64,000 nt of DNA from Sulfurimonas sp. HSL3-1 (GCF_039645995.1 NZ_CP147920.1:1550001-1614000), one strand, 5' to 3'; shown: positions 2,079 through 44,126, counted from the first letter of the stretch. Notes: generated from the sequence alone by a model not told the origin. Program-made: numbers and translations.

Positions 2079-3310
<1,232 letters not shown>

Positions 3311-3311
3311 C

Positions 3312-4820
3312 TTAAATATTATTTTTAAAATGAAAGACGGTGAGATTGGTGCGGCGAAAACCGCGCCGGGTGTAGAAGTGCAGTGCGTTTTCATTGTCGA
3401 TATCCGCGGCGAGTTGGATGCGTTTGTAGCCGTACGACTGTGCCATGAAACGCATTTTGTTGATGAGACGGCTGCCCACACCCATCTTACGGTACTCCTG
3501 TAACACGACGAGGTCCTCGATCTGTCCGACAAAATCCCCCTCGGCGCTGGAGATGAGACGCTGCATCGTCAGCATGCCGACGACCTTCCCCTCGTGACGC
3601 GCGACAAGCAGGTCGGTCCCTTCGTGGGTGTAGAGTTTCGCGATCCCCGAGAGCTGCTTGTCGAAGTCGATCTCGAAATCCTGTTCGATCGCGAAAAGCA
3701 CCCCCAGCAGTCCCGCCATATGCGGCAGGTCCGCCTCCGTTGCAGGCTCGATTGTGATCCCCGTTTTCATATTGATATCGCAGATCTCCGGGTGGAGCAC
3801 TTCGATGACGAGCTTCGCATGTTCGTTCAGCGGATTGTCGCCGATATAGAGCGACTGCAGGTTCTTCATATTCGCCAGCGCTTCGGGAAGATCCACGATA
3901 GCGTTACCGTCGATATCGAGTTCGTACAGTTCGGCATAGCGGCTGATCGATTCGGGCACCTCGGCAATGGCGTTGGAGGAGTAGCACAGAGACCCCAGGG
4001 CGGTCGACGGCACCATCGGGAATGCCGTCAGCCCGCAGCCGTCGCAGGAGAAGGCCCGCAGATAGGGAGCAAAGTCGTCCGCGATCTCCAACGAAGCGAG
4101 CGCATTATCGTCGAGCGTCAGCACCTCGAGCTCCTCCAGCCCGTGTAAGGCGATGTGGCGGAGACGGTTCGAGGCGAGATTGACCGATTCGACCCCCAGG
4201 GTGAAAAAGGCCTTGTCGATCGTCTCGATGCGGTTGTCGGAAAGATCCAGCTCCAGCAGGGAACTGAAGTACGCCGCCTCCGGCGGGACACTTGTGATCA
4301 GGTTGCCTTCGAGGTTCAGCCGTTCGACGGACGTGAGCTGGGCCGGCATCGCGGAGATATCATTAATGTAGTTGGTCGCGAGGTTGAGGGTGCGGAGTTC
4401 GTTGGGTACGCTCAGACAGCGCTCAAAACTTTCGAGAACGTTGCCGCTGAGATCGAGGACCCGGAGCGTCGTGCAACGGCTCAGTTCTGAAACGTCGCCG
4501 ATGCGGTTCCCGCTGAGGTTGAGCGAACGGATCGGGGACATGCCCAGGATGGCCGGAACGGCCGTGAAAACGTTGCGCCGAAGATCGACGTTGCTCAGTT
4601 TCGTCATCGACGCCATGGAATCCGGCAGGGATGAAAGCTTGTTGTTGCCCAGATTGAGCGCGACCAGTTCGCTGAGCAGTCCGAACGCTTCGGGCAGCTG
4701 CTGCAGGGAACGGCTGCTGAGATCGAGGCGCTTCACCTCAGCGGGCGCTTTGATCTCCGATGAAATGGCCCGCTGTTCCATCAGCCATGCGCGCAGTGTC
4801 TCCCATTGCCTTTCGGGCAT
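3312..4820 (-). CDS. Leucine-rich-repeat protein fused to a GNAT acetyltransferase domain
   Basis: Residues about 25-330 form a run of roughly a dozen leucine-rich repeats with the pattern LxxLxLxxNxL (for example LVALNLGNNKLSSLPDSM). Residues about 355-500 are a GNAT N-acetyltransferase domain, with the acetyl-CoA loop in the segment QEYRKMGVGSRLINKM. The LRR part probably binds a protein partner and the GNAT part may modify it. I chose the ATG at 4820 because AAGGAG lies seven bases upstream; a GTG at 4826 would give a four-base overlap with the preceding gene but sits too close to that ribosome binding site. It is the last gene of the leftward run from the FeoA gene. The substrate is unknown. 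Confidence 0.85.
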   Translation of the reverse strand: MPERQWETLRAWLMEQRAISSEIKAPAEVKRLDLSSRSLQQLPEAFGLLSELVALNLGNNKLSSLPDSMASMTKLSNVDLRRNVFTAVPAILGMSPIRSLNLSGNRIGDVSELSRCTTLRVLDLSGNVLESFERCLSVPNELRTLNLATNYINDISAMPAQLTSVERLNLEGNLITSVPPEAAYFSSLLELDLSDNRIETIDKAFFTLGVESVNLASNRLRHIALHGLEELEVLTLDDNALASLEIADDFAPYLRAFSCDGCGLTAFPMVPSTALGSLCYSSNAIAEVPESISRYAELYELDIDGNAIVDLPEALANMKNLQSLYIGDNPLNEHAKLVIEVLHPEICDINMKTGITIEPATEADLPHMAGLLGVLFAIEQDFEIDFDKQLSGIAKLYTHEGTDLLVARHEGKVVGMLTMQRLISSAEGDFVGQIEDLVVLQEYRKMGVGSRLINKMRFMAQSYGYKRIQLAADIDNENALHFYTRRGFRRTNLTVFHFKNNI

Positions 4821-4822
4821 AC

Positions 4823-5089
4823 TCACTCTCCTTCCGCCAAACGGCGTATCCGCTCGAGTCGCTGTTCAATGAGGTGTTCGATCTCTTCAAAATCATAGGT
4901 ACCGAACTGGTTCATATCGTACAATTTTACCAGTGCCGCGCGGCAACAACTCTTATTGCATTCGGTCACAAGTTTTTTTGCTTTTTTAAATGGGAGGGAG
5001 GTATTTTGAAAGATGTCGATGGCCTCGGCCACGTTTTTTTCGCCGCATTCGCAGATCTCCATCCGGAGGATCTCTTCTTTAGTGCGCAT
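4823..5089 (-). CDS. Unknown 88-residue cysteine-containing protein
   Basis: I do not recognise the family. The protein is soluble and helical, with five cysteines: CxC near residue 13-15 (ICECGEKN) and CNKSCC around residues 44-49. Such grouped cysteines suggest metal or Fe-S binding or a redox role. It lies within the nif cluster between the CCE_0567-family gene and the LRR-GNAT gene, and its stop codon touches the start of the latter, implying one transcript. The C-terminal third (EEIEHLIEQRLERIRRL) is a charged helix. Function is not known. Confidence 0.75.
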   Translation of the reverse strand: MRTKEEILRMEICECGEKNVAEAIDIFQNTSLPFKKAKKLVTECNKSCCRAALVKLYDMNQFGTYDFEEIEHLIEQRLERIRRLAEGE

Positions 5090-5128
5090 GATTAGCCTCC
5101 GCAGGACAGGCGTCCATGGCGGGGAGGA

Positions 5129-5323
5129 TCAAAGACCGTTTTCAGTCTTGAACGTGTTGGCTTCTTCGACGGCAACACGAAGTTTTTCACTCAGTTCCGG
5201 CATTTTGACATAATCGGTCCAGAGCGTATCTTCGACGATATCGTGGATCTCAGAAGCGATCTCGACCGCCAGACGTTTGCGTTTGGCCAACTCTTTTTTC
5301 AGTTCTTTTGCATCAGCTGACAT
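5129..5323 (-). CDS. CCE_0567-family (Rop-like, DUF683) nif-associated protein
   Basis: The ATG at 5323 has AAGGAG upstream and yields 64 residues; the longer frame is not supported. The sequence KELAKRKRLAVEIASEIHD followed by IVEDTLW and a second helix matches the two-helix pattern (A..LHDLvE..L) of the small metalloprotein family named after Cyanothece CCE_0567, which is found next to nifX and nifW in many diazotrophs. Its biochemical role is not established. Here it stands between a FeoA-like gene and the small cysteine protein, in the same direction as nifV and nifB. Confidence 0.75.
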   Translation of the reverse strand: MSADAKELKKELAKRKRLAVEIASEIHDIVEDTLWTDYVKMPELSEKLRVAVEEANTFKTENGL

Positions 5324-5349
5324 TCTATCTCCTTGTTCGAGGTGGTTCA

Positions 5350-5393
5350 GGCCCCTCTGCAAACACGACCGAAATCGTCTTTGCAAAGAGGCC
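5350..5393 (-). other. Long intercistronic hairpin after the FeoA gene
   Basis: Fourteen-base arms (5350-5363 and 5380-5393) pair with only two mismatches, both of which can be G-U wobbles in one orientation. The loop region can form a further ACGA/TCGT stem. It begins two bases after the stop codon of the FeoA gene and has no T tract, so it looks like an RNA processing or stability element rather than a terminator. Confidence 0.65.
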
Positions 5394-5394
5394 C

Positions 5395-5622
5395 TCAGGC
5401 CACTTTATGGACCTCGATCAGGGCAGCTTCCTCTTTGCGGAGACCTACCAGGGTACGATTGATCATCACCTGGACGGTGCTTTTGAACCAGCCGAAATGC
5501 TTAATGCTGATCTGCGCATTCGGCATCAGGCCCATTGCCAGCAGGCGTGCACGCAGTGCACCGTGGACGTTGATGGCGTCCACCGCTGCTATTTCACCGA
5601 CTTTCATCTGCAGTAAACACAT
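5395..5622 (-). CDS. feoA: FeoA-domain protein
   Basis: A 75-residue SH3-like FeoA domain: it has the pattern LRARLLAMGLMPNAQI, followed by VQVMINRTLVGLRKEEAALI. FeoA proteins accompany the ferrous iron transporter FeoB or act as small regulators. No feoB is adjacent, so this nif-cluster copy may serve iron supply or Fe-S homeostasis during nitrogenase assembly (inference). GGAGCC precedes the ATG. The protein is preceded by a GNAT gene in the same direction, with a 12-bp gap. Confidence 0.85.
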   Translation of the reverse strand: MCLLQMKVGEIAAVDAINVHGALRARLLAMGLMPNAQISIKHFGWFKSTVQVMINRTLVGLRKEEAALIEVHKVA

Positions 5623-5634
5623 TCCAGGCTCCTT

Positions 5635-6459
5635 TTAAAGTGAAAATGCGTATATATTTTCGAACTTAATCGTATTGCCGCCCTTGCTCATATGGACGAA
5701 CTTCTGTTGTTGCTTGAAGTGGTACTTCTCATACAGGTCCACGACCGGCTTCACGCCGAGGGGAACGTCGGCAAAGACTTTTTTGAGGCCCCGGAAATAG
5801 AGGACCCCTTTCATCATCTTCTCCGCTTCATCCTCATGCCCTTCACGGACCTGCCAGGGGCCCAGATAGACATGGCGTGCGTTCACGACGCTGGAGTGCT
5901 GGAAGGCATTGGGCAGCGTGAACTTGAGTGAGCTTGTGCGCTCCATCTCGTCCATGAGGAAGTCCAGACGGTTCTCACCGAAGGTCTCATGGTCGATGAC
6001 GGAGATGGCGGACTCGAAATTGCCGCCGTCAAGCTCTTTGGCATGGGCATTGGTGAAGTTGAACGGCGGTACCTTGCCGACATTGATGAAACGACCCACT
6101 TCGATATTGGATTCAAAGCCGTGGGCTTCGAAAAACGGCACGAGGTCCGGATTGGCATGGAGATAGATTTTGCGGAAATCGTTCTCCAGTACCGTCAGAA
6201 GCGTCTTGAAAAGGCGGGTGCCGATTCCCTTCTTCTGATACTCCGGGCGTACCATGAAATATTTCATCTGTGCCGTTTCGGAAAAACCGATGGACATAAT
6301 CGCCCCGACAAGCTTGCCGTCTTCATAAGCACCGTAACACAGATGCGGCGAGTGCATCATCATCAGTTTGATATGGTATCCGTCAGCGAGCCAGCCTACC
6401 GTATCGGCAATCTTGACCAGTTCACTGACGTCTGCGAATTTGAGCCATCCTATGAACAT
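5635..6459 (-). CDS. GNAT acetyltransferase with a second C-terminal domain
   Basis: The 274-residue protein has an N-terminal GNAT fold with the acetyl-CoA loop around residues 75-90 (VRPEYQKKGIGTRLFKTLL) and FFEAHGFE at its end. A C-terminal half of about 130 residues resembles the extra domain of YitH/HolE-type acetyltransferases (YLGPWQV, then a DVPLGVKPVVDLYEKYHF segment). It overlaps the 3' end of nifV by 10 bp, so the two are co-transcribed. It is a second, unrelated acetyltransferase in this nif cluster besides the LRR fusion. Its substrate cannot be read from the sequence. Confidence 0.8.
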   Translation of the reverse strand: MFIGWLKFADVSELVKIADTVGWLADGYHIKLMMMHSPHLCYGAYEDGKLVGAIMSIGFSETAQMKYFMVRPEYQKKGIGTRLFKTLLTVLENDFRKIYLHANPDLVPFFEAHGFESNIEVGRFINVGKVPPFNFTNAHAKELDGGNFESAISVIDHETFGENRLDFLMDEMERTSSLKFTLPNAFQHSSVVNARHVYLGPWQVREGHEDEAEKMMKGVLYFRGLKKVFADVPLGVKPVVDLYEKYHFKQQQKFVHMSKGGNTIKFENIYAFSL

Positions 6460-7571
6460 TGGCTCTGCCTGTAAAGAGATACGAGCTCCATGTCGTCAAG
6501 GACCTGCTTTCGTGACGTGACGATTTCGCGGATCCGTGGCAGCAGTGAGTGCAGCGCACTCTTTTCGGCAGTAATACCAAGCTGTTTGAGATGGTACATG
6601 ACCGTGCCGGTTCCCGAATGTTTGCCGATGGGGAAGGCGCGAAGCCCCCCGACCTCTTCGGCATCAAACGGTTCGTAGGCACGGCTGTTTTTCATCATAC
6701 CGTCGGCATGAATACCGCTCTCATGAGCAAAAAGGCGCTCCCCGATAATGGGAGCATTCGGCGCGATGGTCACGCCCGCCGCCTCGGCGACGATGGCGAT
6801 GAGCGAACGCATCTGCATCGCGTCGATATGACGCGCGTCGCCGTAGAGATGCTTGAGGGCCATCGAGATCTGCTCGAACGAAGCGTTGCCCGCCCGTTCG
6901 CCCAGTCCGATAACGGTTGTATTGACGCTCTGTGCACCGGCATCGAGTCCGCTGAGCGCATTCGCATTGGCAAGACCGAAATCATTGTGCGTGTGCATTT
7001 CGATCGGAAGGAGATTGAGGGAAACCAATGCTTTGATGGCTTCATAAGTGCGCGTCGGTGTCAGAATACCGACGGTGTCGCAGTAGCGGAAACGGTCAGC
7101 ACCGAGCGCATGGCCCAGCTGCATCACTTCGGCAATAAAGGAGAGATCGGCACGGGAGCTGTCTTCGGCTCCGATGCAGACATAGAGTCCTTCGCGTTTC
7201 GCGGCCAATATGACTGCCTCGAGTTGCGAAAGCATCCGTTCCTTGTCACCGCCGAACTTGACGTCGATCAGAATGTCAGAAACGGGAATGGAGAGGTCAA
7301 CGGCCGGCACGCCGCATTCAAGCGATGCCTCAAGATCACGCATCGTCGCACGGTTCCAGGTCATCATCCGTGCACCCAGCCCCAGGGCCAGAAGCTCGCG
7401 GATGTCTTCTTGTTCGCGCGTTCCCATCGCGGGAATACCGATTTCGAGTTCATCGGCGCCGCACGCATCAAGCGCGCGGGCGATCGCTATCTTTTCAGCG
7501 GTGTTGAACGCCACATAGGGCGCTTGTTCACCGTCACGTAACGTCGTGTCGTTGATAAAAGCCATTTCCAT
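6450..7571 (-). CDS. nifV: Homocitrate synthase NifV
   Basis: Condenses acetyl-CoA with 2-oxoglutarate to homocitrate, the organic component of FeMo-co. The 373-residue TIM-barrel protein begins FINDTTLRDGEQAP, the signature of the HMGL/isopropylmalate synthase family, and has the metal-binding HTHNDFGLANANAL motif near residue 195 and the GERAGN motif near residue 224. It lacks the C-terminal regulatory domain of LeuA, which favours NifV over isopropylmalate synthase; location between nifB and other nif genes supports this. Two in-frame ATGs (7571, 7565) both have usable ribosome binding sites. Confidence 0.95.
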   Translation of the reverse strand: MEMAFINDTTLRDGEQAPYVAFNTAEKIAIARALDACGADELEIGIPAMGTREQEDIRELLALGLGARMMTWNRATMRDLEASLECGVPAVDLSIPVSDILIDVKFGGDKERMLSQLEAVILAAKREGLYVCIGAEDSSRADLSFIAEVMQLGHALGADRFRYCDTVGILTPTRTYEAIKALVSLNLLPIEMHTHNDFGLANANALSGLDAGAQSVNTTVIGLGERAGNASFEQISMALKHLYGDARHIDAMQMRSLIAIVAEAAGVTIAPNAPIIGERLFAHESGIHADGMMKNSRAYEPFDAEEVGGLRAFPIGKHSGTGTVMYHLKQLGITAEKSALHSLLPRIREIVTSRKQVLDDMELVSLYRQSQCS

Positions 7572-7630
7572 CCTTCACCTTCGTCAATTCGTCTCATCTG
7601 ACGCAAATGCGAAAGCATTTTCTGCTTGTT

Positions 7631-7662
7631 AGCGGCCTTCCGCTGTTTCCCGCCGAAGCGGG
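7631..7662 (-). other. Tandem hairpins between nifB and nifV
   Basis: Two stems lie in the 100-bp gap: AGCGG-CCTT-CCGCT (7631-7644) and CCCGC-CGAA-GCGGG (7649-7662). Read on the transcribed minus strand, the second has a UUCG loop. There is no T tract. These are probably transcript stabilising or processing elements within a nifB-nifV transcript. Confidence 0.6.
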
Positions 7663-7674
7663 GAGAGCGATTGC

Positions 7675-9090
7675 TTAGTTCGCTTCCATCTCCTCGGGGA
7701 GATTGAAGTATTTGCGTGTTGCTTTCAGGACGGAAGCTTCCATCGGCTGATAAGCGTAGCTCATGTCGGCGACGAGGCCGGCAGCTTTGAGGTCATCCTG
7801 CGGACAACCGCCGATCTTCGCCGTGAGGATCAGCTTACAGTCTTTGAGTTTTTCAACAATAGCGTCGATCGGGTTCGTGCCATCCGGACCTGCACAGTAC
7901 TCATAGTCGAGTTTGCGGTGGTGGATGAAGCGGATACCGAGGTCGCCTGCTTCGTAGATGAGGAACTCTTTGACAGAACCGAAGTGCTGGTTGATCATAC
8001 CTTCGCCCGCTGTCGTAACGGCAACGAGGATCGTCTGACCGTCAGAACTGAGGTCTGCTTTCTCTTTACGGACACGCTCGTTCGCTCTGTCAAGGAAGAA
8101 GCGGAACTCTTCGATCTTGGCGTGCGCCTCTTTGCGTCCTTCAACGTTGTAATGCTCTTCGAGTGCGTCGAAGCTCATTTCTGCGAAGCGTTCTTTCGTG
8201 AATTCCGCACCGCGGTCTTCACCGATCAGACCGACGGCATCTGCGCGGCACTGGCGGCAGTGCTGCATCAGTTTCATATCCATACCGCACGCTTCTTGCA
8301 CTTCCATCTGCTGCTGGTCAGTCGCAGACGGAACACCGTCGAGGGCGAATTTCGTACCGAACTCCGGCTCGGAGATGATCGGCATGATGTTGTGGAGGAA
8401 GACACCGATCTCTTTCAGTTTCTTGGAAACTTCCGGCAGGTGCTTGTCGTTGATACCCGGGATCAGAACGGAGTTCGCTTTGATGAGGATACCGTGTTCA
8501 ACACACTTCGCCATACCTTCGAGTTGCTTCTCGAGCAGGATGCGTGCCGCTTCTTTGCCGTAGATACGTTTGTTGTTGTGGTAGATCCACGGATAGATTT
8601 TCGAACCGATCTCACCTGTTTCGTCGACAGAGTTGATCGTGACCGTGATGTGGTCAATGTCATATTTGACCATTTCGTCAACGTAGTCCGGCAGGGCAAG
8701 ACCGTTCGTAGAGAGACAAAGTTTCAGGTCAGGCGCTTTTTCGCGGACCATTTCGAATGTCTTGAATGTTTTTTCCGGGTTGGCGAGGGCATCCCCCGGT
8801 CCGGCAATACCAAGAACACTCATACGCTGAACTTCACCGCCGACGAACATAACCTTCTTGACGGATTCTTCCGGCGTCAGGCGTTCGCTTGTAACCCCAG
8901 GACGGCTCTCGTTGGAACAGTCGTATTTACGGTTACAGTAGTTACACTGGATATTACATGCCGGTGCAACCGCAACGTGGATACGTGCGTAGTGGTGGTG
9001 GGCTCCTTCAGAGTAACATGGGTGATCGTGGACCTTTTCTGCAATATCAGCTGGCAATGCTGATTCTGTTGGGCTTGAACCGCAGCTCAT
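7675..9090 (-). CDS. nifB: FeMo-cofactor biosynthesis protein NifB
   Basis: Radical SAM enzyme that makes NifB-co, the 8Fe-9S-C core of FeMo-co. The ATG at 9090 has AAAGGAG upstream and gives MSCGSSPTES, 471 residues. The SAM cluster motif CxxxCxxC is Cys45, Cys49 and Cys52 (APACNIQCNYC). Further conserved cysteines follow (YDCSNESRPG; ACGMDMKLMQHCRQCRADAVG). From about residue 360 there is a C-terminal NifX/NafY-like domain (TILVAVTTAGEGMINQHFG), the two-domain form found in many bacteria. It is transcribed divergently from a NifX-like gene; the shared intergenic region carries CGACAA motifs. Confidence 0.97.
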   Translation of the reverse strand: MSCGSSPTESALPADIAEKVHDHPCYSEGAHHHYARIHVAVAPACNIQCNYCNRKYDCSNESRPGVTSERLTPEESVKKVMFVGGEVQRMSVLGIAGPGDALANPEKTFKTFEMVREKAPDLKLCLSTNGLALPDYVDEMVKYDIDHITVTINSVDETGEIGSKIYPWIYHNNKRIYGKEAARILLEKQLEGMAKCVEHGILIKANSVLIPGINDKHLPEVSKKLKEIGVFLHNIMPIISEPEFGTKFALDGVPSATDQQQMEVQEACGMDMKLMQHCRQCRADAVGLIGEDRGAEFTKERFAEMSFDALEEHYNVEGRKEAHAKIEEFRFFLDRANERVRKEKADLSSDGQTILVAVTTAGEGMINQHFGSVKEFLIYEAGDLGIRFIHHRKLDYEYCAGPDGTNPIDAIVEKLKDCKLILTAKIGGCPQDDLKAAGLVADMSYAYQPMEASVLKATRKYFNLPEEMEAN

Positions 9091-9405
9091 TTTAGCTCCT
9101 TTAATAGATGTATAGGTTTGACGAACCTGACCTTGCATCATGTAGCTACAATCATATTCTGCTGCCAATGTTGCAAACCCTATTCCAGCCCTTTTCCCCG
9201 TGTTGGGGCTACCACCACCGACAATCTCGACAATTTTGTCCCCTCACCCCACACCATATTGCACCGCAACATTATTAAATAGCAACTCATACACAAAGGC
9301 GTATTTCCGTCTAATCCACGGCGGGCGGGGAACTCCCGACTGGAACGCATCTTGCAATTTACGCTGCAAGTACGCCTGATTCCGGGCGACGGTAAAGGAA
9401 AACCT
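9091..9405. promoter_or_regulatory. Divergent promoter region of nifB and the NifX-like operon
   Basis: A 315-bp region without a credible gene. It contains CGACAA at 9219-9224 and 9228-9233, the latter forming the palindrome GACAA-TT-TTGTC (9229-9240). The same core, ACAATTTTGTC, occurs upstream of amtB, and related copies occur upstream of nifH. No clear -10 box was assigned to either side. Confidence 0.55.
9229..9240. promoter_or_regulatory. GACAATTTTGTC palindrome, candidate nif operator
   Basis: A perfect 12-bp palindrome preceded by a second CGACAA eight bases away. It lies about 165 bp from the start of the NifX-like gene and 140 bp from the nifB start, and matches the motif upstream of amtB (20755-20767). 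Confidence 0.5.
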
Positions 9406-9846
9406 ATGAAGATCGCTGTCCCGTTCAATCAACAGCTTGAGCTCTATCGCGATAACCCTTCGACCGCCCCGAAATTCGGTATTTATGAAATCGTTATGGA
9501 AAAGAGCCGGGTCGGTATCTCACTGCTGAGCGTCGAGATGAACCCGTGGTGCAAAACGGCGTGCGGCCTTTTTGACACCTCTTCGACCACGTGCACCTGC
9601 GATGAAGAGCGTCAAAAAGACATCCGCCATATCACCGAACACTATGCCCTGCTTGAAGTGCTCGCCGGCTGCAGCTACCTGCTGGCCGACCGTTTCTGCG
9701 ACAACACCAAACGGGCATTGACCAACGGCGGCATCCACCTGTTCAAATTCCCCTCCGTCATCCGTACGACGGAGAACGCCATCAAAAATTTCATCATAGG
9801 AGCTTCGCTTGCAAATACAGTTGAACACGTCTACTATGCGTCTTGA
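9406..9846 (+). CDS. NifX/NifB C-terminal-domain family protein
   Basis: A 146-residue single-domain protein of the dinitrogenase cofactor-binding superfamily (NifX, NafY, NifB C-terminus). It begins MKIAVPFNQQLELYRDNPST and keeps the FGIYEI strand, where family members have the FG..K.F.iYev pattern. It has several cysteines (WCKTACGLFD, TCTCDEE, GCSYLLADRFC), more than typical NifX. A role in carrying FeMo-co precursors is likely from the family; the cysteines might bind a cluster. AAAGGA precedes the ATG. It is the first gene of an operon divergent from nifB and overlaps the next gene. Confidence 0.8.
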   Translation: MKIAVPFNQQLELYRDNPSTAPKFGIYEIVMEKSRVGISLLSVEMNPWCKTACGLFDTSSTTCTCDEERQKDIRHITEHYALLEVLAGCSYLLADRFCDNTKRALTNGGIHLFKFPSVIRTTENAIKNFIIGASLANTVEHVYYAS

Positions 9847-10318
9847 AGAGCAGCCGCTTGACATCGGGTACGCTTCCGAAAAGGTCATGCTCAAAGCCCC
9901 GGACGGTACGTCACAGAGCGTCGGGGGACAGGACGGCAAGACCCATCTGATCGTAACGGTCCCTTTTATAGATGACAACTGCATCGCCGAACTGCAAGCC
10001 ATCGGCAAGGCCCTTCCGAAAGCCGACGACGTCACCGCGTCGCTGATCGTCGCCGCGACCTCCCACGAGGACCCTAAGGTCGAAGGCTTCCGCTTCCTGC
10101 TTGACAGCGACGAAGAGTTCGCCGACTGGTACGGTGTCCGCCTCAGCGGTGAGCCCCTCGACGGGGAGCTGACCAAGGCCCTGTTCATCATCTCCAAGGA
10201 TGGTGCACTCTACTATGATGAATTTGCCAAGAACCTGCATGATCCGTTCAACGCCGAAACGGCCGTACGGAAAGTCTATGCTGCGCAGGAATGCTATACC
10301 GGAAAAGGATGCCACTAA
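9809..10318 (+). CDS. Thiol-peroxidase-like (thioredoxin-fold) protein
   Basis: The start is a TTG with AGGAG six bases upstream, inside the 3' end of the NifX-like gene; an ATG at 9836 has no ribosome binding site. The 169-residue protein follows the Tpx layout: a TVPFIDDNC segment where Tpx has VPSLDTPVC, and a C-terminal ALFIISKDGALYYDEF strand pair. One cysteine (near residue 52) sits close to the peroxidatic position, but the expected resolving Cys of Tpx is absent; a second pair is at the extreme C-terminus (ECYTGKGC). It may protect oxygen-sensitive nitrogenase parts, or be a non-catalytic relative. Confidence 0.7.
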   Translation: MQIQLNTSTMRLEEQPLDIGYASEKVMLKAPDGTSQSVGGQDGKTHLIVTVPFIDDNCIAELQAIGKALPKADDVTASLIVAATSHEDPKVEGFRFLLDSDEEFADWYGVRLSGEPLDGELTKALFIISKDGALYYDEFAKNLHDPFNAETAVRKVYAAQECYTGKGCH

Positions 10319-11184
10319 TGAGCGAAACAATGACAACAACAGAGACCAAAGACTACAGTGAACTGATCGAAACGATCAAGAAAGAGATCCGCAACCAGAC
10401 GACCGTCCCCTATTTCGGGCTGGGAATCTTCAAAGGCATCACGACCAAAGAGGGTGAACAGATGCCCTTTGACTCGGATTCTATGATCCTGATGATGAAC
10501 AACGGCCGTGCCATGAGCCCGCGTCTGATGTTCGAATACTCCCGCGCCGCCATGCACCTGGAACAGCGCCGGGGCGTCGACTACATCCAGCAGATGACCA
10601 ACTGGATCTATACCAAGGAGTTTGAACCGACGCCGCTGCACAAGGCGATCCTCAACATGTCTCCGCGCTTCATCATCGACACCAACCGCGATGCCAAGCT
10701 GCAGGAGATGCTCGCCTTCGAACCGCACACGCTCATTATCGGGAAGTCCCGTATCCTTGACAACGACTACCGCTACGAGATCTACGAGTGGGATGTCGAG
10801 AACAAGAAGTACTTCCAGGTAGACGAAGAGGCCCTCGACGACGCCCAGAAGATTATCTTCAAGCCAATGGGAGCACCGCTGCCGGAGCCGAGCTTTGTCA
10901 TCTCCGACGCCGACTACGTCGACTGGCTCACCGAGGCGATGGGCGGTTTTGCCGTGCCGTCCGTGCTCAAAACCTACCGCAAGACGAAAAAGTACCTCTT
11001 TATGGGTACCTATTTCGACCGCGACACCGACCGCATGGTCGCCAACGAACTGACACACGATCTCGAGGGCGGTTACTTCATTAGTGACCAGGAGCTCGGA
11101 AAGAAAGAGAAAAAGTTTGTTGAAAAACACAACCTCGAACTGATCGAGATGTCTCTCGAAGCCTTTACCGAGGCCTTTATCTAA
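10318..11184 (+). CDS. SIR2-like domain protein in the nif cluster
   Basis: The 288-residue protein has the layout of bacterial SIR2-like domains: TVPYFGLGIFKG replaces the usual PFxGAGxS nucleotide-binding loop, then SRAAMHLEQRRG, the EPTPLHKAIL helix, RFIIDTNRDAKLQEML in place of the TTNYDxLLE motif, and LFMGTYFDRDTDRMV in place of LGxSxRDxxxR. Several of these are altered (GLG for GAG, DTNRD for TTNYD), so NAD hydrolysis may be lost or changed. Its ATG overlaps the stop of the Tpx-like gene (TAATG). SIR2-like domains are often defence NADases; this context suggests a nitrogenase-related role instead. Function unknown. Confidence 0.7.
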   Translation: MSETMTTTETKDYSELIETIKKEIRNQTTVPYFGLGIFKGITTKEGEQMPFDSDSMILMMNNGRAMSPRLMFEYSRAAMHLEQRRGVDYIQQMTNWIYTKEFEPTPLHKAILNMSPRFIIDTNRDAKLQEMLAFEPHTLIIGKSRILDNDYRYEIYEWDVENKKYFQVDEEALDDAQKIIFKPMGAPLPEPSFVISDADYVDWLTEAMGGFAVPSVLKTYRKTKKYLFMGTYFDRDTDRMVANELTHDLEGGYFISDQELGKKEKKFVEKHNLELIEMSLEAFTEAFI

Positions 11185-36894: not shown

Positions 36895-39066
36895 CTAGAA
36901 GCGGTAGATGAGTCCGGCGAAATACTCTTTGCCCGGTGCGACCGTGATCGTCGGGTCCTCCCGGTCGAAGGTACCGTCCCCGCTCTTGTCGCCGGTGAAG
37001 TAGACCGTCTGGTAGTAGTGTTCGTCAAAGACGTTGTTGACCTTGACGTAGCACTCCAGTTCGTTGCCGCCGACGTGCATCGTATAGCGCGCCTGCAGGT
37101 TAAGAAAAGCGTACCCCGGCATCTTGATCATGTTCGTCTCGTCCGCATAGTATTCCGATTGCGCGTACACCTGACCGATCACCTTCAGGTTCGGCGAGAA
37201 CCTTATTGTCGTGTAGAGGTCGAAGATGTTGTTCGGGGTTCTCGGCAGCTCGTTGCCGACGATGTCATACTCCGGTCCGCGGTAGGCGATCTTCACGGGG
37301 TCATGTTTCGTGAACTCCGCCTTCAGATAGGTATAGGCGAGGTTGAACGAGAGGCGCCGCGTGGGGTCGCTCTTGAGGGAGAGTTCCACCCCCCGGTTGC
37401 GCGCATCACCGATATTGTCCGTGATGCCGCCGCTGGTCGCAAACGAATAGGTCCCGAAACGGTAACCGATGATATCTTTCGTATCCATCTGAAAAACGGA
37501 AAGCTCGTAATCGAGGAGATGGCCACCAAGATTCCCCCGCGCGCCGACCTCGTAGGTGATGCTGCGCTCGACGTCGATGGGCACGGCCACGCCGTCCGTA
37601 CGGTTGCGGTTTTCGTAGTTCGTGACCATCTTGTCCACCGTCGGTGTCCGGTAGCCGGTGGAGATGTTGGCGTAGAGGGTCGTGTCGGCGTCAACGGCAT
37701 AGGTCGTCCCGACCCGGTAGCCGTTTTCATTATAGGTGTGATCGTCATAAAGCTTCTCATTGTTCCAGTCGGTACCGTTGTAGTCGTGCGAAACAACCTC
37801 GTACATATCTTTCTGAATATCGTGGCGCATATTGAATACAGCCGTCCATGCCGGTGTCACGGCATATTTCAGCTCACCATAGAAGGCGTGCAGACGCTGG
37901 TCGTCATTGGTGTGTGTCAGCTCCCCGGCATAGTTCGCAACGGGATTTCCCTCGACGTCCGTCGAGTTGTAGTCGATCAGTGTCTCGCTGCCGGACTGGT
38001 ACTGGCGATCGCCGAACTCGTAGCCGACAAGATAGGCGAAATCCGCCAGCTCCTGTTTGAACTCCAGCTTGGCCCCCTTCTGTTTTTTGTGTTCCAGGGT
38101 GTGCCGCGCGTAGGTGTCACCGATGCCGTCGCCGTCGGTATCCTGCGGGCTGGAGATGTAATCGTATTCGTCAATGTAGTCGTAGACGTTCAGCAGCAGG
38201 TTCCCCCCGTTGGCAAACTCTTTCGTATAGGTAAGGATGTACTTGTCCAGGTCGACCTCGTTGTCCTTCTGAAAGCCGCTCGCCGCCGTACCACGGGGAT
38301 TGGCGTCCGCCGCGGTGACACCGGTCGATGAAGCGCGTTTTTGCTCCTCGTACTTGAGCGTCTTGTCGATGCCCAGCGTCACGTCGCTCGTGTCGTCGAT
38401 ATAGTAGGAGAGCTTGCCGCTGAGCGACTTGTTCCAGTAAGCAGAATCAACCCAGTAGCCGTCACTTTTGCGGTAGTTCGCGTTCAGACTGGCGGCAAAG
38501 CTCTCCCGGCTGATGCGGGCCGTCGCTTCGTAATCCTGGGCATTGAAGCTTCCCGCTTCCGCACTGACCGAATAGGCGTCGTCGCCGCCCCGTGGCTTGG
38601 AGGTCGTAATAACGATGGCACCGGCCATCGCGCGGTTGCCGTAGAGATAGGCCGCACTCCCTTTGATCACCTTGATGCTGGTGATATCGCTCATATTGAG
38701 ACGGAATTTGCCGCTCTTGGCGTAGACGGGGACCCCGTCGACAATAATCGCGACCCCGGTATCCTCCCACATAAACTCCTGCTGGTTGATCCCACGGATA
38801 TGGATCTCGACGACTTCGTTGCCCATAAAGTCCGCCGTCACGCCCGGCACGGTCTGAAGCACCTCGTTGAGCTGCTTGGGGTTGATCTGCTCGATCAGCT
38901 CCTGATCAATGTAGTTCACCGTCGAGGCTTCGGTTCTTCCCGCCGCTTCGTTGGTGATCGTCGATGACTCGACGCTGATCGTCTCCATCGTATAGTTGTC
39001 TGCCGCTCCGAGCGTCGTAAACGCTCCAAGCAGTACGGCACTGGCAGCCGCAACACCTCTTTTCAT
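36895..39066 (-). CDS. TonB-dependent outer-membrane receptor
   Basis: The 723-residue protein has a signal peptide (MKRGVAAASAVLLGAFTTLGAA), a TonB box (METISVESS), a plug domain (about residues 45-160, with TVPGVTADFMGNEVVEIHIRG following its family pattern) and a 22-strand barrel ending in KEYFAGLIYRF. Similar proteins import iron chelates, cobalamin or other metal complexes; the substrate cannot be told from sequence. AGGAGG precedes the ATG and a 30-bp inverted repeat lies just upstream. It follows the DCCP-like operon in the same direction. Confidence 0.92.
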   Translation of the reverse strand: MKRGVAAASAVLLGAFTTLGAADNYTMETISVESSTITNEAAGRTEASTVNYIDQELIEQINPKQLNEVLQTVPGVTADFMGNEVVEIHIRGINQQEFMWEDTGVAIIVDGVPVYAKSGKFRLNMSDITSIKVIKGSAAYLYGNRAMAGAIVITTSKPRGGDDAYSVSAEAGSFNAQDYEATARISRESFAASLNANYRKSDGYWVDSAYWNKSLSGKLSYYIDDTSDVTLGIDKTLKYEEQKRASSTGVTAADANPRGTAASGFQKDNEVDLDKYILTYTKEFANGGNLLLNVYDYIDEYDYISSPQDTDGDGIGDTYARHTLEHKKQKGAKLEFKQELADFAYLVGYEFGDRQYQSGSETLIDYNSTDVEGNPVANYAGELTHTNDDQRLHAFYGELKYAVTPAWTAVFNMRHDIQKDMYEVVSHDYNGTDWNNEKLYDDHTYNENGYRVGTTYAVDADTTLYANISTGYRTPTVDKMVTNYENRNRTDGVAVPIDVERSITYEVGARGNLGGHLLDYELSVFQMDTKDIIGYRFGTYSFATSGGITDNIGDARNRGVELSLKSDPTRRLSFNLAYTYLKAEFTKHDPVKIAYRGPEYDIVGNELPRTPNNIFDLYTTIRFSPNLKVIGQVYAQSEYYADETNMIKMPGYAFLNLQARYTMHVGGNELECYVKVNNVFDEHYYQTVYFTGDKSGDGTFDREDPTITVAPGKEYFAGLIYRF

Positions 39067-39113: not shown

Positions 39114-39241
39114 GAATATAATAATTAAGACTAGATTCTAGGAAAGGGGTGTTACAGATGTGTTAAATAGAGGGTTTTCATGAAAATTAATTGCTAAATT
39201 CGAAAAAAATGGGCGGATTCGGTATCCGTCCGGGACGGCGC

Positions 39242-40054
39242 CTACACCGCTTCGCCGCTTTCGTAGCCGTAGGACTCCCAGGCAAGGACCGCAGCGCCGA
39301 GGGAGGTCGTGATCTGCGGAAACGCCGGCACGAAGATCGGTTTGCCCAGCTCGTTCTCGATGGCGTTGACCAGCCCGTTGTTGAGCGCCGGGCCGCCGTC
39401 GAAGTAGATCCCTTCGTGGATGCCGACCCGCTTCACGAGCTTCACGATCCGCTTGGCGATGGAGTAGTGGACCCCGCTGACGATCTCCTCGACACGGTGG
39501 TTGTTTCCCAGCAGGCCGATGATCTCCGACTCGGCGAAAACGGCGCATGTGCTGTTGATGGAGAGCGGCGTGCCGGTGGATTTGAAGTGGTACTCCCCCA
39601 GTTCGTCCACGCCGATCTCCAGGTTACGGGCGACGACGTCAAGGAACTTGCCCGTCCCCGCCGCGCAGCGGTCGTTCATCGCGAAGTTGACGACGTTCCC
39701 CTCGCTGTCCATGGAGATCGCCTTGGAGTCCTGCCCGCCGATGTTGATGATCGTCTTAATCTCGCCGTGCTCCTGCGCCGCGGCCCGCGCGCCGATGGCG
39801 TTGGCGGTGATCTCACTGATGTTTTCGTCCGCCTCCTTGAAGAGTTTGCGGCCGTATCCCGTCGCGACGGTGTAGCGCAGCGCCTCCGGGGCGACGCCCA
39901 CCTCCGCCATCAGCTGCGCCAGGCTCTCCTGGGCGTACTTGTAAAACATGCTGCCGCTGGCACTCACGCGGTGTCCGACCAGACGCCCCGTACCGTCGAC
40001 GATGGCGATCTTAATCGCCGTCGACCCGATATCGATCCCTGCAAAATACTCCAC
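39242..40054 (-). CDS. ATP-dependent activator of an HgdB/DCCP-type iron-sulfur protein
   Basis: The 270-residue ASKHA-fold ATPase belongs to the BadF/BcrA/HgdC family. The start is a GTG at 40054, sharing a base with the upstream stop codon, with AAAGGAG six bases before it. It begins VEYFAGIDIGSTAIKIAIVD, the phosphate-binding motif. Cys130 (MNDRCAAGTGKF) and Cys170 (INSTCAVFAESE) are the two cluster ligands; in this family a homodimer bridges one [4Fe-4S] cluster and injects electrons at the cost of ATP. GGQDSK and the C-terminal GGPALNNGLVN motif are intact. Its partner is the HgdB-like protein encoded just upstream. Confidence 0.92.
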   Translation of the reverse strand: MEYFAGIDIGSTAIKIAIVDGTGRLVGHRVSASGSMFYKYAQESLAQLMAEVGVAPEALRYTVATGYGRKLFKEADENISEITANAIGARAAAQEHGEIKTIINIGGQDSKAISMDSEGNVVNFAMNDRCAAGTGKFLDVVARNLEIGVDELGEYHFKSTGTPLSINSTCAVFAESEIIGLLGNNHRVEEIVSGVHYSIAKRIVKLVKRVGIHEGIYFDGGPALNNGLVNAIENELGKPIFVPAFPQITTSLGAAVLAWESYGYESGEAV

Positions 40055-41328
40055 TACTGTCTCCTTTTTCTGCTCTTGAGCGATTCGACGAAGGCTTCGA
40101 CCCGCGTCGTGAGCTGCCCGAGCTGACTGGGGCTGTAGTCGCTCTCCAGGTAGAGGATGGGGATCCCCTCCTTCTCCATCGCCGCCAGCACCGAGCGCTG
40201 CTCCATCTCGTAGACCTGGCACCCCGCGAAGGCCTGGTAGACGACGCCGTCGGCGCTGTACTCTTTCACCAATTCGACGATACGTCGGATCCGGTCGTCG
40301 TTGCGGGTAAAGACCGGGCAGGTGCACCCTTTCAGATAGCGGTCCGCCACCGCGTCGACCATGTCGTAGAGGAACCACTCGTCCACCGAAACCATGTCGT
40401 TGAAGAGGCGGTTCGAGGAGCAGCTCTCATCGGCGACGATCACCGCGTCCGCCATCTCGATAAGCTGCGGTACCTTCAGGTTAGGGAAGATCGGGGGCGA
40501 TCCGGTGTAAACGATGCGCGGGCTGCGCTTGCGGGCGGCGCCGATCCCCTCTTTTACCCTCTCCTCCATCTCCGCGAGCAGCCGCTCCACCGCCGCGCTC
40601 CACGCCTCGGTCTTGTCGAAGAAGAAAGCGTTGGTCACGAGGAACATATCGTTGCCCGAGATCGGCGGCAGCTCCGCTTTGCGCAGGGCGTTCAGACGGT
40701 GGTAAAGCGTCTGGGCATAGCCGACCTTCCGGATGGAGGCTTTGAGCTTCCCGCGCGTCAGCTTCGTTTTCAGCTCCTTTGAGAGGGTCTTGGTGAAGTT
40801 GCGCACGCTGCGGCGCCAATACTCCCGACTCTCCTCGCTCTCTTTGACCCGGGGAAACTCCATCTCGTACACCGGGTAGCCCATCTCCTCGACGATCCCC
40901 GTCGCCTTCGTCTTCTGGTCGCAGGTCGTCGGGGTCACGACGAGGTCCGGGGTATCGGCGAAGTGGTCCGTCGCAAAGGCCCCCACTGTCGCCTTGACCA
41001 GCGGGCAGGATTTCGACGGCAGGTATTCGCCGCCGATCTCGTCGTCGGTGTAAAAGCCGTTGCAGAGCCGCACCGGCGCCGCGCCGAGGGCGTCGATCAC
41101 CTCGTAAGGAACCTGGATGCACATCGTCCCCACTTTCGTTTTCCCCTCGTGCATCGGCGTCATGTCGCAGTGGTAGCGCCGGTGAAGCTCGTAGAAGTAC
41201 GCCATCGCCTCCGGAGGGTTGACGGCGTATTCGCGCAGCGTGTCGAGCACCTTCACCGCTTCCATCGCCTTGTGGCGTCCCTGACGCTCTCTGGGCGTCT
41301 CTATCGTGTGGTCGTTACGGGCGTTCAT
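40054..41328 (-). CDS. HgdB-like iron-sulfur protein (double-cubane-cluster/YjiM type)
   Basis: The 424-residue protein is of the 2-hydroxyacyl-CoA dehydratase beta-subunit family. Conserved parts include VPYEVIDALGAAPVRLCNG, SCPLVKATVGAF, TTCDQKTKATG, DESCSSNRLFND and GCQVYEMEQRS. Candidate cluster cysteines are 70, 89, 108, 136, 303, 335, 337 and 370. Only one such subunit is present, not the two expected for dehydratases, which favours the homodimeric DCCP/YjiM branch. That branch carries an [8Fe-9S] double cubane that reduces small molecules with ATP-driven electrons. The start overlaps the polyferredoxin gene by 14 bp. The substrate is unknown. Confidence 0.85.
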   Translation of the reverse strand: MNARNDHTIETPRERQGRHKAMEAVKVLDTLREYAVNPPEAMAYFYELHRRYHCDMTPMHEGKTKVGTMCIQVPYEVIDALGAAPVRLCNGFYTDDEIGGEYLPSKSCPLVKATVGAFATDHFADTPDLVVTPTTCDQKTKATGIVEEMGYPVYEMEFPRVKESEESREYWRRSVRNFTKTLSKELKTKLTRGKLKASIRKVGYAQTLYHRLNALRKAELPPISGNDMFLVTNAFFFDKTEAWSAAVERLLAEMEERVKEGIGAARKRSPRIVYTGSPPIFPNLKVPQLIEMADAVIVADESCSSNRLFNDMVSVDEWFLYDMVDAVADRYLKGCTCPVFTRNDDRIRRIVELVKEYSADGVVYQAFAGCQVYEMEQRSVLAAMEKEGIPILYLESDYSPSQLGQLTTRVEAFVESLKSRKRRQ

Positions 41329-42301
41329 CTTCGCCTCCGGGTCTGTCTATCTGCATACGTTTGGAAAATCCTTCCTTGGTGGACTGAAAAATGGTCAAAC
41401 CGGCGATATCGGCCTGCAGGCACCCCTCTTCCGGGCAGGCGGCGATGCACTTCATGCAGAGCGTACAGTCGTCGCGCAGGATGTCGCGGCTCTGCACGTC
41501 ATCGGCGATATCCTTGATCTGCATGTCGCAGACGGTGTAGCAGTCGCCGCACTTGGTGCACTTGCCGCCGTCCTTCTTCAGCTTCAGTATGGAAAACTTG
41601 CTGAAGGAGTACTGCAGCGCGCTCATCGGGCAGAAGAAACAGAAAAAGCGTTTCTTCACAAAGGAGCCGGCGAGGAACATCCCCGTGATGACCATCCCCA
41701 GCGCCGTCAGGATCATCGTCGTTTTGCTCGAGAAGTCGATCGTCCATTGCGAGAAATCCCCGACAAAGAGCGGCGTGATCATCCGCCCCGGGCAGATCTG
41801 GCAAAACGCCGCCCGCCACTCGCCCCCGATCAGCCCCGCGCCTATCGCCACCGGCAGCAAGAGCAGAAGAACGAGCAGCACGTACTTAATAACCTTGAGG
41901 CGGTTGAACTGCGTCTGGTTGTAGCTGCTGTAGCGGATGCCGAAAAGCTTGCGCAGCGAAGTGAGCCAGTCCTGCATCGTCCCCAGGGGACAGACGAACC
42001 CGCACCAGGCCTTGTTGAAGACGATAAACCAGAGCAGGAAGGTGACGAATCCAACCAGAATCCCGATGCTCGCCATGCTGAAGAGCATGCCCAGCGGCCG
42101 GCCGAGCTGATGCTGCAGCGGCAGCAGGTAGCACATGCCGCCGTTTTGGCGGTCGTAGCCGCAGGAGAGCACCGGCATATTGCTACCCAGATCGATCGCG
42201 AAGTAGGCTCCGTAGACCAGGAGCACGAAACTAACCAGCTGGACGATGGCGCGGAAACGGCGCAGGTTGCCCAGATCGAGGAAACGTCTAATCCTTTTCA
42301 T
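41315..42301 (-). CDS. NapH-like membrane polyferredoxin
   Basis: From the ATG at 42301 the protein is 328 residues with about five membrane helices and two CxxxCP motifs (CGFVCPLGTMQDW; CFFCPMSALQ) seen in NapH/NosR/RdxA-type proteins. Two C-terminal [4Fe-4S] motifs follow (CTKCGDCYTVC and CTLCMKCIAACPEEGC). Such proteins take electrons from quinol across the membrane. It overlaps both its neighbours, so it is in one operon with the HgdB-like protein and is the likely electron source for its activase. A GTG/ATG six codons upstream (42319) is possible. Confidence 0.85.
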   Translation of the reverse strand: MKRIRRFLDLGNLRRFRAIVQLVSFVLLVYGAYFAIDLGSNMPVLSCGYDRQNGGMCYLLPLQHQLGRPLGMLFSMASIGILVGFVTFLLWFIVFNKAWCGFVCPLGTMQDWLTSLRKLFGIRYSSYNQTQFNRLKVIKYVLLVLLLLLPVAIGAGLIGGEWRAAFCQICPGRMITPLFVGDFSQWTIDFSSKTTMILTALGMVITGMFLAGSFVKKRFFCFFCPMSALQYSFSKFSILKLKKDGGKCTKCGDCYTVCDMQIKDIADDVQSRDILRDDCTLCMKCIAACPEEGCLQADIAGLTIFQSTKEGFSKRMQIDRPGGEDERP

Positions 42302-43289
42302 CGAAACGGACCTCCGCATACGGCTTCACCCTCCGGCGCCGGTAGAGGTAGACGAAGATGCCGGTGAGCAGCAGCGCCGCCGTGCCGAAAAGGAGCGCAA
42401 AGGCGTACGACTTGTAGCTGCTCGGTTCCGGAAAGAAACGGCCGGGGTAGGTCGTCACGAAACGGTGTGTGCCGTACGGTGCCTCCCCAAGCGTGCCGTT
42501 CCCCTCTTCCGACCATGCCGCCGTCACGACAAAGCGCTCTTCGTGGCGTTTGTCAAATGCGTTCCAGGCCGGAAAATACGCTTTGATCAGCGTAAACGTT
42601 GCCGAGCCGTTTTCATCGGAAACGGTCCGTTTGCTCCACCCCTCGCCGGTGCGCATCGTCACGGCCACTCCGGCCTTCGGCACGCCTTTATACATCGTCT
42701 TGAACATCAGCGTGTCGCCGGAGACGAAATGAGTGAAAAGTCCCTCTTCCGCCTCTTTGACGCGGACAATTTCGAACGGAAGCGCCGTCTCATTTGAGCG
42801 GTTGAGCTCCACCTTGTCCCCGTGGCGGCCGTAGGTCAGCTCATACTTGGCGCTGTTCGTACAGCGCACGCCCTCTTTGACGCTATCTTCGACGTAGTAG
42901 ACGGCGTAGCGCCCCGGGGTGCGGGTCGCGACAGTGAGCGACGCGCTGCCCCGTTTCACCGACACATTGGCCTCAACGCCCCGGTGGTCGTTTTCAAAGG
43001 CCATCGCCATCCCGCCGGCGCTGCCGAGCGTGCGAGGAGTGCCTCCTCTGCCGCCGGTCACCAGCCACAGTTTCGTGCGTCCCTCCGGGCGGCCGTATCC
43101 GCTGCCGGAGCCCATGCCTTCCCACTTCTTCGCCCCCGCATAGGGGTTTTCCCTGCTGATCCACAGGGGGGCGCAAAAGACCTTGGCATGCGTCGCTTTC
43201 GCATACGCTGCTTTCGGCACGATCCCCTCGGGCCTCGCCGCCAGTGCGGTCACCGCCGTCAGCGCGACGGCGATCAAATATTTGACCAT
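42288..43289 (-). CDS. Membrane-anchored periplasmic protein, DUF4198-like
   Basis: The 333-residue protein has a signal peptide (MVKYLIAVALTAVTALAA), a large periplasmic part of beta-rich segments and a C-terminal membrane helix (YAFALLFGTAALLLTGIFVYLY) followed by a basic tail. The part GVPKAGVAVTMRTGEG and VSDENGSATFTLI resembles DUF4198 domains that sit near Ni or Co transporters. One Cys pair is in the periplasm (KVFCAPLW, VRCTNS). It overlaps the polyferredoxin gene by 14 bp. Role unknown; possibly substrate or metal binding. Confidence 0.75.
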   Translation of the reverse strand: MVKYLIAVALTAVTALAARPEGIVPKAAYAKATHAKVFCAPLWISRENPYAGAKKWEGMGSGSGYGRPEGRTKLWLVTGGRGGTPRTLGSAGGMAMAFENDHRGVEANVSVKRGSASLTVATRTPGRYAVYYVEDSVKEGVRCTNSAKYELTYGRHGDKVELNRSNETALPFEIVRVKEAEEGLFTHFVSGDTLMFKTMYKGVPKAGVAVTMRTGEGWSKRTVSDENGSATFTLIKAYFPAWNAFDKRHEERFVVTAAWSEEGNGTLGEAPYGTHRFVTTYPGRFFPEPSSYKSYAFALLFGTAALLLTGIFVYLYRRRRVKPYAEVRFDEKD

Positions 43290-43301
43290 ATCTTCTCCTC
43301 G

Positions 43302-43946
43302 TTATAAATGGCTCAATCCGTTGATGGTTGCGATGCCCACCGCCATCAGCAACAGCGCGGCGATCCGCTCGATCGCCGTCTTGTAACGCGCAAGCTGCGC
43401 CACCGCTTCACGCGCCACCTGGGAGAAAAAAAGCCCGTACAGGGCCCAGGATGCGCTCACCGCCCCAAGGCCGAAGGCCAGGCCCATCGCCAGGGCATCC
43501 GCCGCGTTTGCGCTCCCTGCCGCCACGGCGATGAGCGACATGACGGGGGCGCAGGGGTTCAGCGTGATCGCAAACCCCATCGCAAAGTAGCCGACGCTCC
43601 CGGTCGTCCCCTGCCTTCCCCCTGAAACACTGCAACAGCGGCGCTGCCAGAAACTCCGGTGCAGCAGCACGCCGCCTACGAAAACGGTGCTGATCCCCAG
43701 CAGGCTCTGCGAAAGCGCGGGATCGTCGAGCAGCGACTTGACCGCCATCGCGCCGAAAGAGGCCGCCACCGCGATCAGGCTGTAACTGACGATCCGCCCC
43801 AGGCTGAAGATGGAAACGACATAAAGCGCCCCGCCCTCTCTGCCGTTTTGCGTCAGCAGCAAGGGGCTTAGAAAGGGCATACAGCTGAACATGCAGGCCG
43901 TCGCGCCGTAAGAGAGACCGATAAGCAGTAAAGAGAGGTACGCCAT
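43302..43946 (-). CDS. CcdA/DsbD-like membrane thiol-redox protein (TauE/SafE-annotated family)
   Basis: The protein, 214 residues from the ATG at 43946 (AAGG five bases upstream; a TTG one codon earlier is less likely), has six predicted helices. Paired cysteines Cys18 and Cys22 (GATACMFSCMPF) in the first helix and the conserved NPCAPV motif near residue 130 match the CcdA/DsbD membrane domain, which carries reducing power across the membrane. A basic loop near residue 100 carries CCSVSGG. It is the first gene of the leftward operon with the periplasmic protein, polyferredoxin and HgdB-like pair. Confidence 0.8.
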   Translation of the reverse strand: MAYLSLLLIGLSYGATACMFSCMPFLSPLLLTQNGREGGALYVVSIFSLGRIVSYSLIAVAASFGAMAVKSLLDDPALSQSLLGISTVFVGGVLLHRSFWQRRCCSVSGGRQGTTGSVGYFAMGFAITLNPCAPVMSLIAVAAGSANAADALAMGLAFGLGAVSASWALYGLFFSQVAREAVAQLARYKTAIERIAALLLMAVGIATINGLSHL

Positions 43947-43949
43947 CAA

Positions 43950-44126
43950 AACCTTGTCTGCACACGCCCGGAAGCGATCCGGTATATTATTTGTAAATTA
44001 TTAGTGATTATTACTTTTAACTGTTAATTATTTGTTAAATATACGCTCTCCCGATCTCCACATGCCGATTGCGGGGCGGAAGCGGCAAAAACGCAACAGC
44101 GGACAGCCCCGCGTGCATGGTAAAAT
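43950..44126. other. AT-rich intergenic region upstream of the CcdA-like gene
   Basis: Very AT-rich at 43985-44040 (repeated ATTATT/TTAATT). It should hold the leftward operon's promoter. I could not assign boxes with confidence. Confidence 0.4.

Follow-up and report, generated by a model that had tools for sequence, protein, structure and literature searches.

What role does an ATP-driven iron-sulfur reductase have when its genes are joined to those of a membrane polyferredoxin and stand beside an outer-membrane receptor? The question was raised by five genes in a 64,000-nucleotide stretch of Sulfurimonas sp. HSL3-1 (GCF_039645995.1, NZ_CP147920.1:1550001-1614000; hereafter the window, with positions counted from its first letter). 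These genes encode a DsbD_2 membrane protein, a DUF4198-like periplasmic protein, a NapH-like polyferredoxin, and an HgdB/HgdC pair of the double-cubane type, a rare class of nitrogenase-like, ATP-powered reductases for which we know of no natural role. Our analysis revealed that the five genes and a TonB-dependent receptor belong to a cassette found in five phyla, which in Campylobacterota stands behind a control site, TTAACA-N5-TTAACA, common to copper genes. The reading that we favour, and to which we give about an even chance, is a TonB-dependent reductive metal-acquisition system of the copper regulon in which HgdC and HgdB feed electrons outward through NapH.

A conserved cassette with a double-cubane reductase

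The five genes were all located on the minus strand, co-directional and overlapping or nearly abutting, and the junctions between successive genes (+12, -14, -14, and -1 bp) indicated an operon. The first-pass annotation had described five overlapping or closely spaced genes on one strand, and all of them were recovered where it had placed them, with their family assignments (Table 1); its five-gene set was incomplete, as the TonB receptor, the wider cassette, and both control sites had been missed. The first gene, DsbD_2, starts with ATG, with a TTG one codon further upstream. The receptor gene lay on the same strand, 175 bp downstream of the five genes, with a control site of its own.

A scan of bacterial genomes added 80 loci, which came from Campylobacterota, Pseudomonadota, Bacteroidota, Calditrichota, and a metagenome-assembled genome of Acidobacteriota. 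With the loci of related genomes and the window itself, 89 were tabulated, a count of loci from partly overlapping collections and not of independent events, and the linkage of each gene was counted in loci with enough flank. NapH lay immediately upstream of HgdB in 81 of 81 testable loci, and the DUF4198 protein lay upstream of NapH in 72 of 72; HgdC followed HgdB in 80/84, the TonB receptor preceded the set in 49/59, and DsbD_2 was present in 49/56. The same gene order therefore recurred far beyond chance, and the linkage of the set, on which the first-pass annotation had depended, was found in relatives across all five phyla. Both the DUF4198 protein and the cassette-type HgdB were encoded in 7 of 60 related genomes, and no genome had one without the other, so that the DUF4198 subtype of the window was seen only where cassette HgdB occurs. 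In most relatives from Campylobacterota the DUF4198 domain was fused behind a second polyferredoxin, and ExbB, ExbD, TonB, and an RND permease were frequent neighbours. Two genomes without cassette HgdB carried “light” operons, in which TonB receptor, DUF4198, NapH, and DsbD_2 genes were followed by TonB or ExbB. Since these operons stood under the same TTAACA-N5-TTAACA site and had no HgdBC, the HgdBC pair looks like an add-on to the uptake set.

The HgdB protein reached 356.2 bits against NF040772, the NCBIfam equivalog model for the double-cubane cluster protein (DCCP), a narrow margin over the cut-off of 350. Against the models for dehydratases and benzoyl-CoA reductase (BCR) it scored 82 of 454 bits (BzdN), 55 of 421 (BcrC), and 65 of 700 (HadC). 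The closest solved structures in the PDB were those of DCCP, 7yyl and 6eno (E about 1e-70). Seven cysteines (C70, C89, C108, C136, C303, C337, and C370) were present in 80 of 80 cassette HgdB proteins and all aligned with cysteines of 7yyl, while the position of Cys89 was not Cys in BzdN; two extra cysteines, Cys335 (76/80) and Cys54 (68/80), were characteristic of the cassette proteins. In the tree, cassette HgdB formed its own supported clade, separate from DCCP, YjiM, and BzdN and without firm grouping with acyl-CoA dehydratases; the outgroup branches were long, which limits what the tree says of the exact origin of the clade, and the HgdB-like proteins of Azoarcus pAZKH, which had very long branches, were not relied on. 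By sequence, HgdB is a DCCP member that forms a separate clade within the double-cubane reductases, and the earlier view of a DCCP-like protein with an unlikely role as a CoA dehydratase was borne out.

Like DCCP and its reductase DCCP-R, the cassette proteins form an HgdB/HgdC-type pair, but cassette HgdB has only about one third identity to DCCP and is obligately linked to NapH and DUF4198 genes and usually to a TonB receptor. E. coli YjiM/YjiL is also a single HgdB with an HgdC, but YjiM belongs to a different clade and the pair has no TonB, NapH, or DUF4198 neighbours. The HgdC protein scored 224 bits against TIGR00241 (cut-off 125), and its cluster cysteines C130 and C170 were invariant in 79 homologues. 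A genome search gave a single match for HgdC, the gene in the window.

Several further loci were observed, which are referred to by L numbers. A second, paralogous cassette was found in the genome of the window (L015, G000:C1:1403000-1422000, genes 4192-10371), with an HgdB 68% identical and no HgdC of its own, and the HgdC of the window may serve both cassettes. The Sulfurovum mangrovi plasmid NZ_CP087125 (396 kb, L137) carried a complete cassette, in which the annotation divides the receptor between two reading frames. A cassette like those of Campylobacterota occurred in a metagenome-assembled genome labelled Petrimonas, of Bacteroidota (L049), through a binning error or transfer. Other Campylobacterota (L023-L026) had distant HgdB/HgdC pairs of the DCCP or YjiM type and no cassette.

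Membrane and periplasmic partners

The NapH protein had four predicted transmembrane helices, two cytoplasmic [4Fe-4S] ferredoxin motifs, and two cytoplasmic CP motifs, and scored below the curated cut-offs (TIGR02163, 72 of 213 bits, E 6e-20; NF007013, 75 of 234). Residues C47, C57, Q63, H64, C167, and C170 were invariant in 77 of 77 cassette NapH proteins, and the positive-inside rule predicts them to lie in loops on the periplasmic side. This set of four Cys and Gln-His was missing from E. coli NapH and YccM. The conservation suggests an extra metal or cluster site at the outer face, and NapH may therefore carry electrons across the membrane. The cupric reductase CcoG and the membrane ferredoxins of the NapH, NosR, and PceC types are similar as membrane polyferredoxins with CX3CP-type motifs and a link to copper or to periplasmic reduction, whereas cassette NapH has the added invariant site.

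The signal-peptide protein with a C-terminal membrane helix in the first-pass annotation turned out to be a DUF4198-fold protein with an N-terminal signal or anchor. It scored under the cut-off of PF10670 (28.6 bits, E 2e-6, cut-off 34), and its profile gave nothing useful against PDB sequences; its similarity to Zcp was found by fold comparison only. With an AF2 model of pLDDT 86 (predicted local distance difference test), the best folds for the domain were Zcp, solved with Cu, Zn, and Co (Z 18.6), and a Ni-bound DUF4198 protein (Z 16.0), while unrelated folds scored near Z 6. The DUF4198 domains of relatives were fused behind membrane segments, and many of these proteins contained His-rich or Cys-Cys segments. 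The earlier suggestion that heavy-metal chemistry takes place on the periplasmic side gained support. The membrane protein described as CcdA/DsbD-like was confirmed as DsbD_2 (PF13386, 57.3 bits, cut-off 24.9), with Cys19, Cys23, Cys106, and Cys133 invariant in 64 homologues.

Separately, second-type DUF4198 proteins (L015 6362-7312, L042 6345-7298, and L046 8064-8999) had conserved H-x-N-C-C and Cys-Cys segments, which are suggestive of soft-metal binding.

A control site shared with copper genes

The direct repeat TTAACA-N5-TTAACA, with at most one mismatch, was found ahead of the first cassette gene in 46 of 52 Campylobacterota cassettes (0.97 expected from shuffles), and 27 of the 52 had the exact site (about 0 expected). 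The genome of the window contained three exact sites and one occurrence of the reversed control pattern. The three preceded the operon of the window, the second HgdB operon (L015), and a separate operon of a second polyferredoxin and an RND permease (L119). In the same genome, one-mismatch sites preceded the TonB receptor of the window, the receptor of L119, the TonB-polyferredoxin pair of L129, the multihaem cytochrome of L131, and the OprC-like receptor of L135; a few more had no clear target. Pieces that form one operon in relatives are thus scattered in this genome, yet under a common site. For Fur, one simple consensus was searched in 90 cassette upstream regions, and no excess over shuffles was found.

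As the site was found in 78 of 100 related genomes, its other targets can be seen in genomes without the cassette. There, 58 of 81 sites were located upstream of a gene at a distance of at most 110 bp, and 9 fell inside genes, against 8 and 19 of 40 for the reversed pattern (p 8e-8 for the upstream position); the 81 sites came mostly from the family of the window and were taken in the order in which the search listed them, without random sampling. The first genes after the 58 sites included 11 TonB receptors, 6 DsbD_2 genes, most of them followed by cbb3 oxidase genes, 3 CopZ-like HMA proteins, and 2 NosL, and none of these classes stood behind the reversed control sites (p 8e-5). Seven of the 11 receptors matched the TonB-copper family TIGR01778, with scores under its cut-off in those checked individually, and each of the seven had the CxxxM...HxM motif, the copper site of the receptor OprC (PMC8610252). 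The site apparently marks a general copper regulon of Campylobacterota; judged from the genes behind it, the regulon is copper-linked, although the underlying signal may be redox or oxygen, with copper enzymes also under its control. A cassette-specific regulator was rejected, since the site is common in Campylobacterota, where it serves copper genes. Two-component genes were located near several cassettes, and the genome of the window has many OmpR-type paralogues.

Table 1. Genes and control sites of the window, and loci elsewhere that bear on them
Feature	Position	Strand	Basis or remark
DsbD_2 (CcdA/SafE-like), 6-helix membrane protein, first gene of operon	43302-43946	-	PF13386
DUF4198-like periplasmic protein, N-terminal signal/anchor and C-terminal transmembrane helix	42288-43289	-	Fold; weak PF10670
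NapH-like polyferredoxin	41315-42301	-	Fer4_5/Fer4 domains; 4 predicted helices
HgdB-type double-cubane-cluster reductase, cassette clade	40054-41328	-	NF040772; HGD-D PF06050, E 2e-97
HgdC-type ATPase/activase, GTG start	39242-40054	-	TIGR00241; BcrAD_BadFG PF01869, E 8e-54
TonB-dependent outer-membrane receptor, siderophore-receptor type	36895-39066	-	PF00593 and PF07715
Control site TTAACA-N5-TTAACA, exact	44022-44038	-	Upstream of five-gene operon
Control site, one mismatch	39150-39166	-	Upstream of TonB receptor
Light operon	L255 2350-7704		TonB receptor-DUF4198-NapH-DsbD_2, no HgdBC
Light operon	L256 493-5575		TonB receptor-DUF4198-NapH-DsbD_2, no HgdBC
Copper-regulon-like site loci	L175, L176, L179, L183, L186-L188, L190, L191, L216, L244, L245, L248, L251, L252		

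Other loci behind the site were also noted. L119 (G000:C1:1188000-1205000, 2514-9444, minus strand) encodes a second polyferredoxin, an RND permease, and a TonB receptor, with the same control sites, and its polyferredoxin corresponds to the half that lies N-terminal in the fused DUF4198 proteins of relatives. L129 (2026-5562) has a TonB receptor and another second-type polyferredoxin, with a one-mismatch site, next to YeeE/YedE-like genes; L180 has a divergent pair similar to it. In L130 (4858-7403), L182, and L192, genes for a pair of cytochrome-like membrane proteins, accompanied by one for a thioredoxin-like protein or TonB, stood behind the same site, and this pair also adjoins cassettes in L041 and L045.

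Direction of the electrons and nature of the metal

The favoured reading draws on the gene set, its conservation, the DUF4198 fold, the conserved NapH residues, and the control site common to copper genes. A metal chelate, most likely of copper, would enter through the TonB receptor, and the membrane-anchored DUF4198 domain would handle the complex in the periplasm. HgdC would spend ATP to drive electrons into the double-cubane HgdB, which would charge NapH with electrons of a much lower potential than quinol gives. NapH would act as an iron-sulfur wire through the membrane, and its predicted periplasmic four-Cys/His site would reduce the complex near DUF4198, with DsbD_2 as a probable thiol partner. 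Very stable complexes or sulfide-bound metal could be reduced in this way and the metal freed. We hypothesise that the electrons run from HgdB to NapH and that the ligand is recycled; the RND permease of relatives may export the emptied ligand. The stronger claim, that the HgdBC pair is an electron booster for the membrane wire and not a substrate enzyme, so that the imported complex is reduced below any quinol potential, is a tentative one and falls short of an even chance.

Copper is the probable metal by analogy with two systems, Bordetella CrtA/CrpH and the PepSY/DUF4198/TonB iron clusters. In Bordetella pertussis, one operon encodes CrtA, which imports copper chelates with TonB, together with CrpH, a putative inner-membrane reductase of periplasmic copper, and the system serves haem-copper oxidases; its reductase is a PepSY_TM haem protein, unlike the iron-sulfur wire of the cassette with its ATP-driven double-cubane supply (PMC13038864).

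Several points weigh against this reading. The CxxxM-HxM motif was absent from the receptors of the window, L119, and L015, which differ in this from OprC/NosA copper receptors; it was present in the L135 receptor, and relatives with the motif have the same TTAACA site. Nickel-binding DUF4198 proteins bind metal through a conserved N-terminal His (PMC12537917), and no His followed the N-terminal hydrophobic stretch in the protein of the window. The case for copper therefore rests on the regulon. Several regulon genes are respiratory (cbb3 and cytochromes), so that its signal could be redox or oxygen, and the site was tested in the cassettes of Campylobacterota. The NapH model was of middling quality (pLDDT 76), and its lack of a match in the PDB says nothing on novelty. 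An ATP-driven reductant is not required for turning Cu(II) into Cu(I) except where the complex is very stable; one may speculate that only very stable or sulfide-bound complexes call for the low potential, a requirement that would suit sulfidic habitats.

The main rival keeps the uptake system and reverses the flow. Electrons from quinol or ferredoxin would pass from NapH to HgdC, be boosted by ATP, and enable HgdB to reduce the imported ligand or complex in the cytoplasm, and the destruction or modification of the chelator would set the metal free. Both HgdB and HgdC are predicted to be soluble and cytoplasmic, HgdC delivers electrons to an HgdB-type catalytic subunit in known systems, and in nitrate reduction NapH serves as a subunit of the quinol dehydrogenase; the obligate linkage with uptake genes suits this direction as well. 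The first-pass annotation had also proposed that quinol electrons raised by ATP reduce a small substrate, which is one of the two possible directions. Outward flow from HgdBC fits better, because uptake is TonB-dependent, the domain with the metal-binding fold is periplasmic, the conserved NapH cysteines and histidine are predicted to lie on the same side, the core set has no inner-membrane importer for a chelate, and the light operons do without HgdBC. Flow from NapH to HgdB thus seems unlikely, though it deserves serious consideration.

Less probable again is iron, taken up as a ferric siderophore, with the potential of HgdBC used to reduce very stable ferric complexes and the site belonging to a general metal or redox regulator. 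Ferric catecholates have potentials too low for reduction by quinol, and the cassette receptors scored best against siderophore receptor models. DUF4198 proteins also occur in Fur-repressed reductive iron clusters (PepSY/DUF2271/DUF4198/TonB), which share a TonB receptor, a secreted DUF4198 protein, and a transmembrane electron carrier with the cassette but use a flavinylated DUF2271/PepSY path, HgdBC being outside their description (PMC8238504). The search with one simple Fur consensus, which showed no excess at the cassette promoters, and the copper genes under the same site argue against iron. It is quite improbable that HgdBC is a DCCP-like reductase of a small anaerobic substrate, placed beside uptake genes through shared redox regulation only: characterised DCCP reduces small molecules and the regulon contains respiratory genes, but the association with the DUF4198 protein and NapH, in presence and in position, was perfect across five phyla. 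A subunit of 2-hydroxyacyl-CoA dehydratase or BCR is scarcely credible despite the Pfam HGD-D domain, as the cassette has one HgdB subunit where two different ones are needed, the scores are far under those models and over the double-cubane cut-off, Cys89 is replaced in BzdN, the clade is separate, and no CoA genes were seen in the neighbourhoods looked through.

The component families are known; a literature search for a 2-hydroxyacyl-CoA dehydratase with a TonB receptor and a 4Fe-4S set, and for an iron-limitation variant, returned no description of the combination. New are the periplasmic residues of NapH, the Zcp-like fold of DUF4198, the TTAACA site ahead of cassettes, and the light operons. 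Through the cassette, one DCCP clade is tied in five phyla to metal uptake by way of TonB and, within Campylobacterota, to the copper regulon. If HgdBC were indeed an electron booster, the cassette would be the first system in which ATP powers reduction across a membrane for the uptake of a metal, and a whole clade of DCCPs would gain a physiological role. If the favoured reading is true, it would explain a cluster whose reductase genes now carry the annotation of acyl-CoA dehydratase and activase, and extend the small set of known bacterial copper-acquisition systems. Bacteria would then spend ATP to lower the potential of electrons for the capture of a nutrient metal.

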